Shown piece after piece: positions 32,070 to 38,614 of a stretch of DNA of 64,000 bases. The notes beneath the pieces were generated by a model. That model ran no database searches, was not told the origin of the DNA, and saw only the letters and a program-made list of their open reading frames with translations. The stretch's first letter is position 1; each line of letters starts with the position of its first letter. Origin of the DNA: Desulfofustis sp. PB-SRB1 (GTDB lineage Bacteria; Desulfobacterota; Desulfobulbia; Desulfobulbales; Desulfocapsaceae). A program made the position numbers and the translations under genes. The stretch lies in assembly GCA_016722945.1 (NCBI GenBank), contig JAEQMT010000066.1, positions 186,001 to 250,000 on the forward strand, given 5' to 3'.

Positions 32070-33593
32070 ATGACAACTGAAATCCTCATAAACTCAAGAA
32101 GATATGAGGCCAGAATTGCCCTTGTTGAGCAGGGCAATCTAACCGAATTCCACCTACAGCGGCCCACCGAAAAAGGCTTTACCGGAAATATCTATCTGGG
32201 GCGCGTTGTTCGGGTGCTGCCCGGGATGCAGGCGGCCTTCGTGGATATCGGCCTCGAACGAACCGGTTTCTTATACGTTGACGATGTATTCATACCGCCC
32301 GCCGAATTGCCCGACACGCACTCAGACGGCAACAGTGTCGGCAATGGAAGTGTCGATGTTGCATCATCCGCGGACAAACGTCGACCGCAATATACCATAG
32401 AAGAATTGCTCCGTGAAGGTCAGCCGCTTATCGTCCAGGTCAGCAAAGACCCCATCGGCACCAAAGGGGCACGGCTGACCTGCCAGATAACCTTGCCCGG
32501 TCGTAATCTGGTCTTCATCCCCTACACTGAGCACATCGGTATTTCACGCAAAATTGAGGACGAGGAGAAAAAAGAGGCGCTCCGCGCCATGATCGAGCGA
32601 CTCCGACCGAAAAACGTCGGTTTCATCGTCCGCACCGTTGCCGAAAACTTGGGAGACGAAGAAATTGAAGCGGATATGGAGTTTCTTATGTTGTTGTGGG
32701 AAGAGATCAAGGATCGCGCCCAGTCGGCGCATATCCCCTCTCTCTTATATGAGGATCTTGATATCGTTCTCCGTTCGGTAAGGGATCTTTTCACCAGCGA
32801 CGTCGATTATCTGATCATCGATGATCTGAAATCCTATGAAAAACTCACGCACTTCGTCAATACCTTCACCCCTCACCTGAAAAACAAGATATCTCTGTAT
32901 CGGGGGGAGTTGCCGCTTTTTGAGGCTTACGGGATCGATGTTGAAATTGCCAAGGCCCTGGAAAAGAAGGTGTGGCTGCGTTCGGGGGGCTACATCATTA
33001 TCGAAAACACCGAGGCTCTGACCGTCATCGATGTGAATACCGGTCGGTTTGTCGGTAAAGACGACCTGCATGAAACCATCTTTAAGACCAATTTGGAGGC
33101 CGCCAAGGAGATCGCCTATCAATTGCGTCTTCGCAACATCGGCGGGATAATTATCATCGATTTCATCGATATGGAAGACGAGGCCCACCGCGAACAATTG
33201 TTCAGTGTATTCAAGGATGCGGTACAGAAAGACAAAAGCAGAATCAATATTCTCAAATTATCTGAGTTCGGCCTCGTTCAGATGACAAGGAAGCGAAACA
33301 GTGAGAATCTCAACCAGATGATGTGCGAACCGTGCCATTACTGCCTGGGAGAGGGAGTTCTCAAGTCTCGTCGCACCATCTGCTACGAAATATTTAGAAA
33401 AATTGCCCGCAGCTCCGATCATGCCGGCGGCTCCACCGTGACCATACGGGTGCATCCGCGAATTGCCGAAATGCTGCAGAAAGAAGAAATCACCACCCTG
33501 AGTCTTCTTGAAAGCGATACCGGCAAGCGAGTCATCATCGCTCCGGCCAAGGATCTGCATATCGAAAAATATGAAATAATCTGGCAACGTTGA
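32070..33593 (+). CDS. rng: Ribonuclease G
   Basis: A 507-residue RNase E/G family endonuclease. It has an N-terminal S1 RNA-binding domain (about residues 38-130, FTGNIYLGRVVRVLPGMQAAFVDIG), the catalytic DNase I-like domain with VIDVNTGRFVG and DFIDM, and the zinc-link Cys pair in CEPCHYC. It lacks the long C-terminal scaffold of RNase E. It matures 16S rRNA 5' ends and degrades mRNA. It heads the plus-strand run rng, M23 peptidase, lptF, nnrDE, CBS gene. Confidence 0.93.
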   Translation: MTTEILINSRRYEARIALVEQGNLTEFHLQRPTEKGFTGNIYLGRVVRVLPGMQAAFVDIGLERTGFLYVDDVFIPPAELPDTHSDGNSVGNGSVDVASSADKRRPQYTIEELLREGQPLIVQVSKDPIGTKGARLTCQITLPGRNLVFIPYTEHIGISRKIEDEEKKEALRAMIERLRPKNVGFIVRTVAENLGDEEIEADMEFLMLLWEEIKDRAQSAHIPSLLYEDLDIVLRSVRDLFTSDVDYLIIDDLKSYEKLTHFVNTFTPHLKNKISLYRGELPLFEAYGIDVEIAKALEKKVWLRSGGYIIIENTEALTVIDVNTGRFVGKDDLHETIFKTNLEAAKEIAYQLRLRNIGGIIIIDFIDMEDEAHREQLFSVFKDAVQKDKSRINILKLSEFGLVQMTRKRNSENLNQMMCEPCHYCLGEGVLKSRRTICYEIFRKIARSSDHAGGSTVTIRVHPRIAEMLQKEEITTLSLLESDTGKRVIIAPAKDLHIEKYEIIWQR

Positions 33594-33603
33594 GTCTACT
33601 ACC

Positions 33604-34974
33604 ATGACAAGATTGAGAAGGTCATCAAGCCCCAGGCGTACCATATTCATCCTTTTTCTTCTCCTGCTGGCCGGTTCCGCGGTAGCAGCGTATCTGCTCT
33701 TTTTTGAGAGCACCAAACCGGATGTGGAATTCACCGGCCCCACCATCTACCTGGGTAAACAGGGTGCCGTCTCTTTTCACGCGCGGGATGGAGAAAGCGG
33801 CTTGAGACAAATTATCGTAACCCTGAGCCAGGGCGATCTGGAAAAAGAAATCTATCGACTCGAGGTGGCTCGAAACGGGTTTATCGGAACGGTGGGCCTG
33901 CCCGACAAACACCATACCGTTGAGATTTCGCCGCCTGATCTTGGTTTTGACGATGGTGACGCACGGTTGCGGATCATCACCAGAGACTTCAGCTTAGGCA
34001 ATTTCTTAAGGGGAAATGAAACAAATTTAGACAAAGAGATTACCATCGATACCAAGCCGCCCCGCATTACCATGCTCCATAGCGAACGATACATCAATCC
34101 CGGCGGCAGCGGCATCGTGATGTATCGAGTTGATGAAGAGGTAGAAGGCGGCGCCGTTATCAATGACCATTTCAACCCCGGTTTTCTTGTGGATGAAACC
34201 CTCGACGATGTCTACATAGCCTACTTTGCCCTGCCCTTTGATGCTTCTGAAATCAGTTCCGCGGTGGTTGAGGTATCTGATAAGGCAGGAAATATAGCCT
34301 CTCATAGTTTTCAGCCAATTTACAGGGCGCAAAAGTATAAAGAGGATCGGATTAATGTCGGCGATGGGTTTCTCTCCGCCAAGATGCCTGAGTTCACCCA
34401 ATATTACCCTGACATGCAAGGTTCTGCAGTTGACAAGTATCTTTTTGCCAACAATGAGATACGTCGGCTTAACAATGAACGTATCAGCGAGCTATGCGCG
34501 GATCCCCACCATCACAGATTATGGGAAGGACGATTTACCCGGATGGCCGGCAGCACCAAGGCAGGGTTCGCCGATCAGCGCACCTATTACTACCAGGGCG
34601 CCGCAATTGATAATCAGGTGCATCTTGGCATCGACATCGCCTCCACCAGACACGCCGAAGTAAAGGCGGCGGCAACCGGCATTGCCATATTTGCCGATTA
34701 TCTCGGTATTTACGGCAATTCGGTGATTCTCGATCACGGCCAGGGGGTGTTCAGCCTCTATTCGCATTTAAGCCGGCTCAATGCGGAAGTAGGCGCCACT
34801 TTCAATCAGGGTGATGTCCTTGGCCTCACCGGTACGAGCGGAATGGCGGGGGGGGATCATCTCCATTTCTCCATGTTGGTTAACGGAATTTTTGTCACCC
34901 CCGTTGAATGGTGGGATCAACACTGGATCGATGTAACCATAGAAGAACCCCTGACTGAAATCAGATTCCAGTAA
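33604..34974 (+). CDS. M23-family peptidoglycan endopeptidase, membrane anchored
   Basis: A 456-residue protein with one N-terminal membrane segment (about residues 14-36), a long periplasmic region, and a C-terminal lysostaphin-like M23 domain. Zinc ligands appear as H340 and D344 (HLGID) and H419xH421 (HLHFS). The domain cuts peptide cross-links in peptidoglycan, as MepM does, or activates other hydrolases if inactive; the ligands here are present. It starts ten bases after rng. Confidence 0.88.
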   Translation: MTRLRRSSSPRRTIFILFLLLLAGSAVAAYLLFFESTKPDVEFTGPTIYLGKQGAVSFHARDGESGLRQIIVTLSQGDLEKEIYRLEVARNGFIGTVGLPDKHHTVEISPPDLGFDDGDARLRIITRDFSLGNFLRGNETNLDKEITIDTKPPRITMLHSERYINPGGSGIVMYRVDEEVEGGAVINDHFNPGFLVDETLDDVYIAYFALPFDASEISSAVVEVSDKAGNIASHSFQPIYRAQKYKEDRINVGDGFLSAKMPEFTQYYPDMQGSAVDKYLFANNEIRRLNNERISELCADPHHHRLWEGRFTRMAGSTKAGFADQRTYYYQGAAIDNQVHLGIDIASTRHAEVKAAATGIAIFADYLGIYGNSVILDHGQGVFSLYSHLSRLNAEVGATFNQGDVLGLTGTSGMAGGDHLHFSMLVNGIFVTPVEWWDQHWIDVTIEEPLTEIRFQ

Positions 34975-35026
34975 CGAAGCCGCACGCCCAAGATTTTGTG
35001 GGTAGGTAGCCCACCCGATCTGACTT

Positions 35027-36472
35027 ATGCGAACATCTCTCACCGTAAAACGGCCACCATTTTTGCTCTACAGCTATCTGGCCGGTGAAATTATGGCGCC
35101 ATTTCTGGCCAGTTTCATCATCATGAACGGAGTTTCTTTTCTGGTCAGACTCATTCCCTTTCTCAACACCGTCCTGGAATACGATATCAGCCCGGCCGAT
35201 TTCATTCGTCTTTTCTCGTATCTGTTTCCCACCATGCTTTCATATTCCATCCCGATGGCCGCCATGCTCGGGGTCACCATCGGCTTTTCCAGACTGGCAA
35301 ACGATTCGGAAATGCTCGCCTTTAAAGCAAGCGGCATCAGCATTTACCAGGTGGTGCCGCCCCTGCTTGTTTTTTCATTCCTGGTGGCATCTGTTACCGC
35401 CTATTTCTCCGTCAGTCTTATTCCGGCCGGCAATATTTCCCTCCAAAAAATGATGTACCAGCTGGCCAAGGAAAAAATCGATCGGGGCATCCGCGAACAG
35501 ACCTTTACCGAGGCCCTTGGCGATCTGGTCGTACACGTCGGCACCATCGATCGTGAAAACAGAACATGGCATAATGTCTGGGTATCTGATAATCGAGAGC
35601 GCGCCATTCCCGCCATCACCATGGCGAATTCAGGCACCATGAGAAGTGATGTGGAAGAGATGAAGGCAACCCTCATCCTCAACGACGGCAGCATGCACGT
35701 TCCCGAACCGACAAGTTCGCAAATCATCACCTTTGATCGCTACATCCTCGATATACCCCTCAAACCGTTGGCCAACGCAACACTGCGGCAAACCAGAGGC
35801 ACCATGAACCTTTCCGAACTACTGGCTCAGACAGAAAAGGTGGGGGCCGATACAGAAGCAGGAGGAAGTTATTTTACCGAATATTTAAGCAGACTGGTTT
35901 TGCCGGTTGGCTGTTTCACGCTGGCGCTTTTCGGTCTCCCCCTTGGCCTGCAGGCCGGCCCCGGCAAACGGGCCATTGGCATACCGCTGGGGTTGGGGAT
36001 CTATATCATCTATTATGTCGTTTTTTCCATCGCCCGGGGTATAGCCAGCAACGGTGGCACAGTGGCGGCAATGACCACAACCATGTGGCTGCCCAATCTT
36101 TTCTTTCTTGCTCTCGCCGTTGTATTGATTCGGCAAACTGCCCATGAACAACAATTCGTGCCGCCGGTGATCAGCTCCATATTGGCGATTCAGGTCAGTA
36201 TCATCCAATCACTGTTTCATCGGGCAGTATCGTTTGTTTTTCCATCCAGGCGTAAAGACCCACCGCCCACCTACCAGGCGGGCGATTTTGAGTCATCACC
36301 GCCTTCGCCGAACAATCTGCATGGGCATGTTGCCACTCGCGTCTTTCATTTTCCCAGTTGTCCCTACTATCACCTGAGCCACACCATCGAGTTCAAAAAT
36401 GTATCGATGGCGCTTGACGCCGGTTTTACGCCCTGCCCTCGCTGCCGGCACATAATGGATAAAGAAAAGTGA
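35027..36472 (+). CDS. lptF: LptF-type LPS export permease with extra C-terminal zinc-finger-like tail
   Basis: A 481-residue YjgP/YjgQ-family permease. Three N-terminal helices (including the LFSYLFPTMLSYSIPMA block), a periplasmic beta-jellyroll (about residues 130-260), and three C-terminal helices (to about 370) match LptF, which with LptG and LptB2 extracts LPS from the inner membrane. Residues about 436-481 form an added cytosolic module with FHFPSC and CPRC that resembles the Ada-type zinc-binding domain. lptG is not adjacent. LptF rather than LptG is a tentative assignment. Confidence 0.83.
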   Translation: MRTSLTVKRPPFLLYSYLAGEIMAPFLASFIIMNGVSFLVRLIPFLNTVLEYDISPADFIRLFSYLFPTMLSYSIPMAAMLGVTIGFSRLANDSEMLAFKASGISIYQVVPPLLVFSFLVASVTAYFSVSLIPAGNISLQKMMYQLAKEKIDRGIREQTFTEALGDLVVHVGTIDRENRTWHNVWVSDNRERAIPAITMANSGTMRSDVEEMKATLILNDGSMHVPEPTSSQIITFDRYILDIPLKPLANATLRQTRGTMNLSELLAQTEKVGADTEAGGSYFTEYLSRLVLPVGCFTLALFGLPLGLQAGPGKRAIGIPLGLGIYIIYYVVFSIARGIASNGGTVAAMTTTMWLPNLFFLALAVVLIRQTAHEQQFVPPVISSILAIQVSIIQSLFHRAVSFVFPSRRKDPPPTYQAGDFESSPPSPNNLHGHVATRVFHFPSCPYYHLSHTIEFKNVSMALDAGFTPCPRCRHIMDKEK

Positions 36473-36563
36473 TAGATGATTTATACGAATCGCTTAATAG
36501 ATAAAGAAACTTCAAACCGACACCCTTTTTCTATACAATTGCCTACTTAGGTTCAAATCCCCA

Positions 36564-38165
36564 ATGATAGTGACAACCCGTGAAGAGATGGCGGCAATTG
36601 ATCGTACCGCCATCGATCAATACAAGATTGCCGGCATCGTTCTGATGGAAAATGCCGGCCGCGAGATCGTCCGCTTGATGACGGCGCGCTATGATCTGCC
36701 TAAGGGCGCATGCATACCTATTTTTATCGGGCCCGGCAATAATGGCGGCGATGGGCTGGTTATCGCCAGACATCTTTTGCAGCAGCAGTGTCGGCCAATA
36801 CTATTTTACCTCATCGACCCTGGATCACTGCAAGGTGACGCTTTGATTAATCAGCGCATTGTCGATCAGCTCCCCATTGAAGCATGCATCATATCCGATA
36901 GTTCACGGGTTCAGCTACTTGCTCAACTGCTCATTCAGGTTGCGGCCGCTGACTCTATCAAGGTGATGGTTGACGCAATTTTTGGAACCGGCCTTGACCG
37001 AGACATTCGCTCCCATTTCGCCGAAGCCATCACAACCATCAACAGCTTCTCGCGCAACCATAACATAGAAGTTGTTGCGGTCGATATTGCCTCCGGGCTA
37101 GATGGTAATACCGGGCAGATCCATAACACCTGTATCAAAGCATCTTTGACCGGCACCCTCTGCTACCCCAAGATTGGCCATTTCAGCGGTTTCGGCCCGA
37201 AGATGAGCGGCGAACTCGTAGTGCTTGACATCGGCATCCCGCATACCATCGCACCCCAAAAAAACATTACCCGCACCGCCCTTACCCTTTCGGAAATCGG
37301 ATCCACGGTTGATACCCACAACAAAAAATACGATACCCACAAGGGAGATAATGGACACTTGCTCATACTGGCCGGCAGTGTCGGCAAAACCGGCGCCACT
37401 ATCCTTGCCGCCCGCGGTGCTCTGCGCAGTGGCTGCGGGCTGGTCACCATTGCCAGTCCACAGCAGCTGCACGCTATTTTTGAAACAGCGGTAGCCGAAG
37501 CAATGACCAGTGTTCTTCCCACCCAGCAGCCAAAACTCACCATGAGTGAGTATGATTTGATCGGTGCCCTGTGCGAAAACAAAAAGGCCGTCGTCCTAGG
37601 CCCGGGGATCGGCACCGACGACCAGACCGCCGAACTGGTTATCGCCCTGTATGAGCGATGTCCGCTTCCGATGATCGTGGATGCCGACGCGCTCACCGCC
37701 ATTGCCGCCGTCAAGCACACCCTTAAGCCGCCCGCCGGAATTCGTATCCTCACCCCACATCCGGGAGAGATGGCCCGCCTGCTGCAATGCGAGACAGCCG
37801 ATGTACAGAATGACCGGATGGCGGCGGCACTGCGCTGCCTTGAGATCTACGGTCAAGCCGCACATGAGGTAATCATTGCCCTGAAAGGGGCCGGCACCGT
37901 CATCGCTTCCAGGAAAAGAATAGCGATCAACACCACCGGTAATCCCGGGATGGCGACGGGAGGTATGGGTGATGTCCTGGCCGGTATTATCGGCGCATAT
38001 ATCTGTCAAGCGATACCACCGGCAACAGCTGTGGAACACGGAGTCTTTTTTCACGGCAGAAGCGCCGATTTGCTGCTGGAAACATCGGGTATCGGCTACA
38101 ACGCCGGTGAAGTCGCCGATATGGTACCGTTTTGCGTTAAACATTGTAAGGAAATCAGCATATGA
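36564..38165 (+). CDS. nnr: Bifunctional NAD(P)H-hydrate epimerase/dehydratase
   Basis: A 533-residue fusion. The N-terminal YjeF_N epimerase (about residues 1-215) has GPGNNGGDGLVIARHL; the C-terminal ribokinase-like ADP/ATP-dependent dehydratase (about 235-530) has HPGEMARLL and NPGMATGGMGDVLAGI. It repairs hydrated NADH and NADPH. Length is normal. The next gene overlaps by four bases (ATGA). Confidence 0.94.
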   Translation: MIVTTREEMAAIDRTAIDQYKIAGIVLMENAGREIVRLMTARYDLPKGACIPIFIGPGNNGGDGLVIARHLLQQQCRPILFYLIDPGSLQGDALINQRIVDQLPIEACIISDSSRVQLLAQLLIQVAAADSIKVMVDAIFGTGLDRDIRSHFAEAITTINSFSRNHNIEVVAVDIASGLDGNTGQIHNTCIKASLTGTLCYPKIGHFSGFGPKMSGELVVLDIGIPHTIAPQKNITRTALTLSEIGSTVDTHNKKYDTHKGDNGHLLILAGSVGKTGATILAARGALRSGCGLVTIASPQQLHAIFETAVAEAMTSVLPTQQPKLTMSEYDLIGALCENKKAVVLGPGIGTDDQTAELVIALYERCPLPMIVDADALTAIAAVKHTLKPPAGIRILTPHPGEMARLLQCETADVQNDRMAAALRCLEIYGQAAHEVIIALKGAGTVIASRKRIAINTTGNPGMATGGMGDVLAGIIGAYICQAIPPATAVEHGVFFHGRSADLLLETSGIGYNAGEVADMVPFCVKHCKEISI

Positions 38166-38614
38166 AAACTGCGCGTGACATCATGACCAGCACCATTATC
38201 AGCGTTACCCCTGAAACCTCCATTCAGGAAGCGGCCCAGATCTTTATCGATAAAGACATCAATGGCCTGCCGGTACTGGATGAAACAGGCAACCTTTTCG
38301 GTATTGTCACCGAAAACGATCTGCTCTTTCAGAATAAACGGATCAAGGCGCCGGCGGTAGTTACCATCCTCGATTCATTTTTCTTTCTAGACTCACCTGA
38401 AAAGATGAATCGTGAAATACAGAAAATTGGTGCAACCTTCGTAAAAGATATCTGTTCAAGACCGGTGGTAACGGTAACCGCCGACACCTTACTGGATGAA
38501 ATAGCGACCCTGATGATTGAGCAAAACGTTCATACTCTTCCGGTGCTTGATGACAACGGTACAATGGTCGGCATTATTGGGAAAAAAGATATTATTCGCA
38601 CAATTATATTGTAG
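38162..38614 (+). CDS. CBS-pair domain protein
   Basis: A 150-residue protein of two CBS motifs (about residues 8-60 and 92-147) separated by a short linker, with no other domain. CBS pairs bind adenine nucleotides such as AMP, ATP or SAM and act as energy sensors. Overlap with nnr suggests a link to nucleotide metabolism, but the target is unknown. It ends six bases from the ung stop, on the opposite strand. Confidence 0.83.
   Translation: MKTARDIMTSTIISVTPETSIQEAAQIFIDKDINGLPVLDETGNLFGIVTENDLLFQNKRIKAPAVVTILDSFFFLDSPEKMNREIQKIGATFVKDICSRPVVTVTADTLLDEIATLMIEQNVHTLPVLDDNGTMVGIIGKKDIIRTIIL

Follow-up and report, generated by a model that had tools for sequence, protein, structure and literature searches.

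The window, a 64,000-nucleotide stretch of a contig from Desulfofustis sp. PB-SRB1 (JAEQMT010000066.1), contains an lptF open reading frame at 35027-36472 on the forward strand (481 amino acids plus stop), which encodes an LPS-export permease of the LptF type with a C-terminal extension. The gene order across 32070-38614 is RNase E/G, M23 peptidase, lptF, NAD(P)H-hydrate repair (nnr) and a CBS protein. Residues 17-369 (35075-36133, forward strand) form the LptF core of six transmembrane (TM) helices and a periplasmic beta domain, and match PF03739 (LptF_LptG) at 5.5e-75 with 253 bits (cut-off 27.9). The 481-residue protein scored 219.8 bits (4.1e-65) with the LptF equivalog TIGR04407, just under the cut-off of 230, and 112.9 bits with the LptG model, far under its TIGR04407 score. 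It is the only LptF of the source genome, in which LptG is encoded by a separate, unlinked gene on another contig and has no tail.

The whole-protein AlphaFold model, built from a 60-sequence alignment (mean pLDDT 86.9), places TM helices at residues 12-51, 56-92, 110-154, 277-308, 318-341, and 346-372, and its best Foldseek matches are LptF chains (5x5y_F, 1.2e-13). The solved LptF subunits of LptB2FG exporters (5x5y, 6mit, 9dok) share the whole core fold and family with the window LptF, but the solved chains found, of 365 residues or fewer, match it in the core only, and tail-less LptF relatives from the same order end shortly past TM6. In the window protein, AlphaFold, conservation, and hydropathy delineate a predicted post-TM6 helix (residues 380-404) followed by a disordered linker to residue 430 (together 36164-36316, forward strand), with low model confidence at residues 416-424, before the tail module.

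An Ada-type domain with predicted zinc ligands

By sequence, profile, and predicted fold, the LptF tail is a member of the Ada zinc-binding fold family. The domain comprises 46 residues (approximately 431-476; 36317-36454, forward strand) and contains the module RVFHFPSC...DAGFTPCPRC at the LptF C-terminus. A sequence-only reading of this DNA had proposed an Ada zinc-binding-like module at 36333-36472; the identification is borne out, but that span starts about 16 bases inside the module and ends with the stop codon (36470-36472), so that 36317-36454 describes it better. Scanned alone against PF02805 (Ada_Zn_binding), the 77-residue tail scored 23.7 bits (E 4.8e-5), and tail-alone scores range from 23.7 to 25.3, over the curated cut-off of 23. 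The full-length LptF reaches 19.3 bits, under that cut-off, and the tail would therefore be overlooked by routine annotation; at E 0.001, PF02805 is matched by just 9 of 60 relatives scanned in full length, so Pfam mostly misses it. When 32 tails were compared with PF02805, every one matched with an E value no worse than 0.1.

The best PDB sequence match of the tail alone is the E. coli Ada N-domain (E 0.0012), and a profile of the 32 tails matches E. coli Ada at 3.7e-5. The pLDDT of the tail in the whole-LptF model is 92-97. A tail-only model gave Ada structures 1wpk, 1u8b, and 1zgw as the top three Foldseek matches (probability 1.00, TM 0.57-0.65 on the query), with modest E values of 0.02-0.03 because the domain is small; structures of the E. 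coli Ada N-domain were its only confident PDB matches. The NCBIfam sunset domain (NF051437), present for example on ribosomal proteins, is weakly similar to the tail (E 0.0062) and was rejected, since its 16.6 bits fall below its cut-off of 27.

Alignment with Ada (1adn) identifies four predicted zinc ligands, all on the forward strand: His441 (36347-36349), Cys445 (36359-36361), Cys470 (36434-36436), and Cys473 (36443-36445), equivalent to Ada Cys38, Cys42, Cys69, and Cys72, respectively. All four are invariant in the 56 aligned tails and, with F456, A462, and G466, make up the seven invariant columns. A pattern kept in dozens of genomes is not due to chance, and the family match together with these Cys ligands upholds the Ada-like assignment of the sequence-only reading. 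Profile, ligand order, and predicted fold are common to the tail and the Ada_Zn_binding family (PF02805; Ada 1adn, 1u8b, 1zgw, 1wpk), three of the four ligand Cys residues of the Ada N-domain are kept, and we infer that the His-Cys3 site of the tail would hold zinc. Several features set the tail apart from Ada: the basic face is absent, there is no AraC-type or methyltransferase partner domain, and the domain is joined to a membrane permease. Ada Cys38 is the methyl-group acceptor (PMC4437013), and this position is His in every LptF tail aligned. An Ada-type methyl-phosphotriester sensor, to which the module had also been likened, is thereby excluded, because the nucleophilic Cys38 is absent; the basic surface of the nuclease-type domain is gone as well. 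Of 56 relatives, 54 have an extra Cys in the loop, and 41 have a second one there. The window copy and one relative (L144) have no loop Cys; at 36368-36382 (residues 448-452) the window copy has His residues (YHLSH) where the 54 relatives have the loop Cys.

Distribution and selection

Loci of relatives, sampled mostly from metagenome-assembled genomes (MAGs), were gathered by a profile search of genome contigs with the LptF alignment. The tail is found in 73 of 80 named relatives from the Desulfocapsaceae and Desulfobulbaceae, two families of sulfur-cycling bacteria, including Desulfofustis, Desulfocapsa, Desulfopila, Desulforhopalus, Desulfobulbus, Electrothrix, Desulfogranum, and other genera. 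Among 58 relatives, it is present in most members of the family of the window (f1), and an order-wide search found it across families f1 and f12, in most genomes of both. M23 peptidase and nnr genes adjoin most lptF genes of relatives whether the tail is present or absent, and gene order was rejected as a correlate of the tail because these neighbours are kept beside tail-less lptF too.

On a tree of 109 LptF core sequences, the tail label needs eight changes. For the clade of f1 and f12, the tree reads as a single old gain followed by approximately seven losses; the copy in f4, another family of the order, would stem from a separate gain or from an ancient one. Repeated loss indicates that the tail is not required for basic LPS export. 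In the tail-less genomes, we found no tail split off as a separate gene, and no tail remnants were found downstream of tail-less lptF at the eight loci with enough sequence.

Mean pairwise identity among the 56 aligned relatives is 48% for the tail, 16% for the linker, and 61% for the core. Pooling 118 close pairs gave dN/dS values of ~0.13 for the tail, ~0.31 for the linker, and ~0.09 for the core, which are rough because pairs overlap and dS is high. As judged from these comparisons, the tail is under purifying selection and the preceding linker is not conserved; the tail is selected for, yet dispensable in some lineages.

Ada-type LptF tails also occur in two genera of f4 (L036 in G039; L190 in G452), where they are closer to, or midway to, the nuclease-type domain described below, and these are possibly a separate fusion event. 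In another class of the phylum, a distant LptF with an adjacent LptG carries an Ada-type tail, FRGNIVSGKFHKADC...GFKPCSSCNP (L208:2136-3581, reverse strand, in G418). This protein passes the PF02805 cut-off in full length (25.9 bits); among 17 genomes of that class only this one shows the fusion, which therefore rests on a single MAG. The occurrences in f4 and in another class indicate that the pairing of LptF with an Ada-type domain recurs. A contig labelled Aminicenantes bacterium (L098) encodes a Desulfocapsaceae-type LptF with the tail, and it was the one LptF fusion among 297 genomes of that phylum, the only other phylum sampled. A fusion in another phylum was rejected, since the contig is probably misbinned Desulfocapsaceae: it clusters with L095 on the tree, and the genome already possesses a tandem pair of the LptF family. 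None of the other long open frames checked in that phylum was LptF. In a 492-residue open frame (L212, G325), residues 422-467 form an Ada-type domain, and the start of the protein, judged by eye, resembles a flagellar FlhF-type GTPase. No description of an LptF-Ada fusion or an LptF zinc tail turned up in the literature searched.

Relationship to nuclease-type domains

The nearest relatives of the tail within the phylum are C-terminal domains of SNase-type nucleases and small proteins, apparently secreted and with starts that resemble signal peptides, where signal peptides and nuclease type were both judged by eye; a resemblance to nuclease-borne Ada domains had been noted from the sequence, and these are indeed its closest kin. 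The consensus of the nuclease-type domain, YHGNxxSxxFHxPxCxYYNCKxCTAxFxSREEAIxAGYRPCKxC, shares with the LptF tail the His-Cys-Cys-Cys pattern and the GN...S...FH start, and the loop Cys pair is common to most members of both groups. The probable source of the tail is such a C-terminal domain, borne by a nuclease or by a small secreted protein within the same phylum.

The two groups differ in their surface. The nuclease-type kin look exported and are basic (+5), whereas the LptF tails are predicted to be cytosolic and are neutral, with hydrophobic and acidic substitutions. Mean net charge is +0.1 for LptF tails and +5.3 for the nuclease and stand-alone relatives (p = 9e-11, in a test that uses related, not independent, sequences). 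Changes specific to LptF are Arg to Glu or Asp after the second ligand, Arg and Glu to Val or Ile in the helix, and Arg to Glu or Thr before the PC motif; relative to the nuclease kin, basic charge has been lost and a hydrophobic/acidic face gained. Since the nuclease-borne domain lies outside the cytosol, its properties may not transfer to the LptF tail.

Topology and possible roles of the tail

The N-terminus of LptF is basic and basic loops lie on the same side, a positive-inside pattern that, with the six predicted TM helices, places the LptF C-terminus in the cytosol. The predicted topology agrees with the cytosolic attachment proposed from the sequence, and from it we infer that the tail is cytosolic. 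The window's post-TM6 segment is fairly hydrophobic (19-residue mean 1.64), and a post-TM6 helix that crossed the membrane would put the tail in the periplasm, in keeping with the secreted look of the domain's relatives. We regard such an arrangement as quite improbable, since across the family this segment has a median of 1.02, compared with 2.0 for TM6, only 4 of 56 members exceed 1.6, and the six-TM model and positive-inside pattern point to the cytosol.

Our preferred reading, to which we give an even chance, is that the His-Cys3 Ada-type finger is a zinc-stabilized docking module near LptB2 that binds a cytosolic protein and tunes or positions the exporter. In this proposal, a nuclease-type domain would have been acquired and then reshaped by loss of its basic face and gain of a hydrophobic/acidic one. 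The tail would hang from the cytosolic end of TM6 by a flexible linker, next to the LptB2 ATPase, and would most likely bind a cytosolic protein, be it LptB or a factor involved in LPS biosynthesis or stress; binding of the partner would then tune or position the exporter. LptB contacts LptF through TM1 and a short helix between TM2 and TM3 (PMC6286764), and a cytosolic tail would be near this contact. The lost basic charge speaks against nucleic acid as the partner, and the newly acquired hydrophobic/acidic face favours a protein; with the reactive Cys and the basic surface of Ada both lost, the tail probably docks or regulates the exporter rather than binding DNA.

The invariance of the four ligand residues would also suit a zinc or redox sensor, in which oxidation of Cys ligands or loss of zinc alters the tail and throttles LPS export, for example when these anaerobes are stressed by oxygen or sulfide, and the extra loop Cys residues of most relatives and the reactive zinc Cys known in Ada and Hsp33 (PMC4999995) are in its favour. 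We nevertheless think sensing unlikely: neither the window copy nor L144 has the loop Cys, the reactive Cys38 is represented by His in the ligand set, and the loop Cys pair is also present in the secreted nuclease relatives, and is therefore ancestral and no adaptation of LptF. Of the roles suggested from the sequence alone, docking of a partner appears better supported than metal or redox sensing. Binding of nucleic acid, by which the tail would hold DNA (the chromosome) or RNA (a message) at the inner membrane, could be expected of a domain whose nearest relatives are nuclease domains and whose counterpart in Ada is a DNA binder; it becomes very improbable with a net charge near 0 in LptF tails against approximately +5 in the relatives and Ada, with Glu or Thr mostly replacing the Arg before PC, and with the methyl-acceptor Cys38 gone in every copy. 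The roughly seven losses, with neither a remnant nor a compensating stand-alone tail found, would fit an inherited fusion that has no real job and is retained by inertia. Such a passenger is improbable given a tail dN/dS of ~0.13, an invariant ligand set, the sharp contrast between linker and tail, the retention of the tail across two families, and the recurrence of the fusion elsewhere.

This finger bears on the open question of how the cell matches its LPS export to supply and stress. No cytosolic accessory domain is present on the solved LptF chains found, and a conserved finger fused to the only LptF of the cell offers a direct handle on an input to the exporter. Tentatively, and with less confidence than in docking as such, we suggest that the lineage-wide, recurrent Ada-type finger on LptF may pass a cytosolic signal (metal, redox, or an LPS-synthesis enzyme) to LptB2FG. 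It is likewise only a tentative suggestion that such an input would operate in the LptB2FG of the Desulfocapsaceae and Desulfobulbaceae and, perhaps separately, in a few other lineages. In the LptF tail, a nuclease-type zinc domain has apparently been reused away from nucleic acid.
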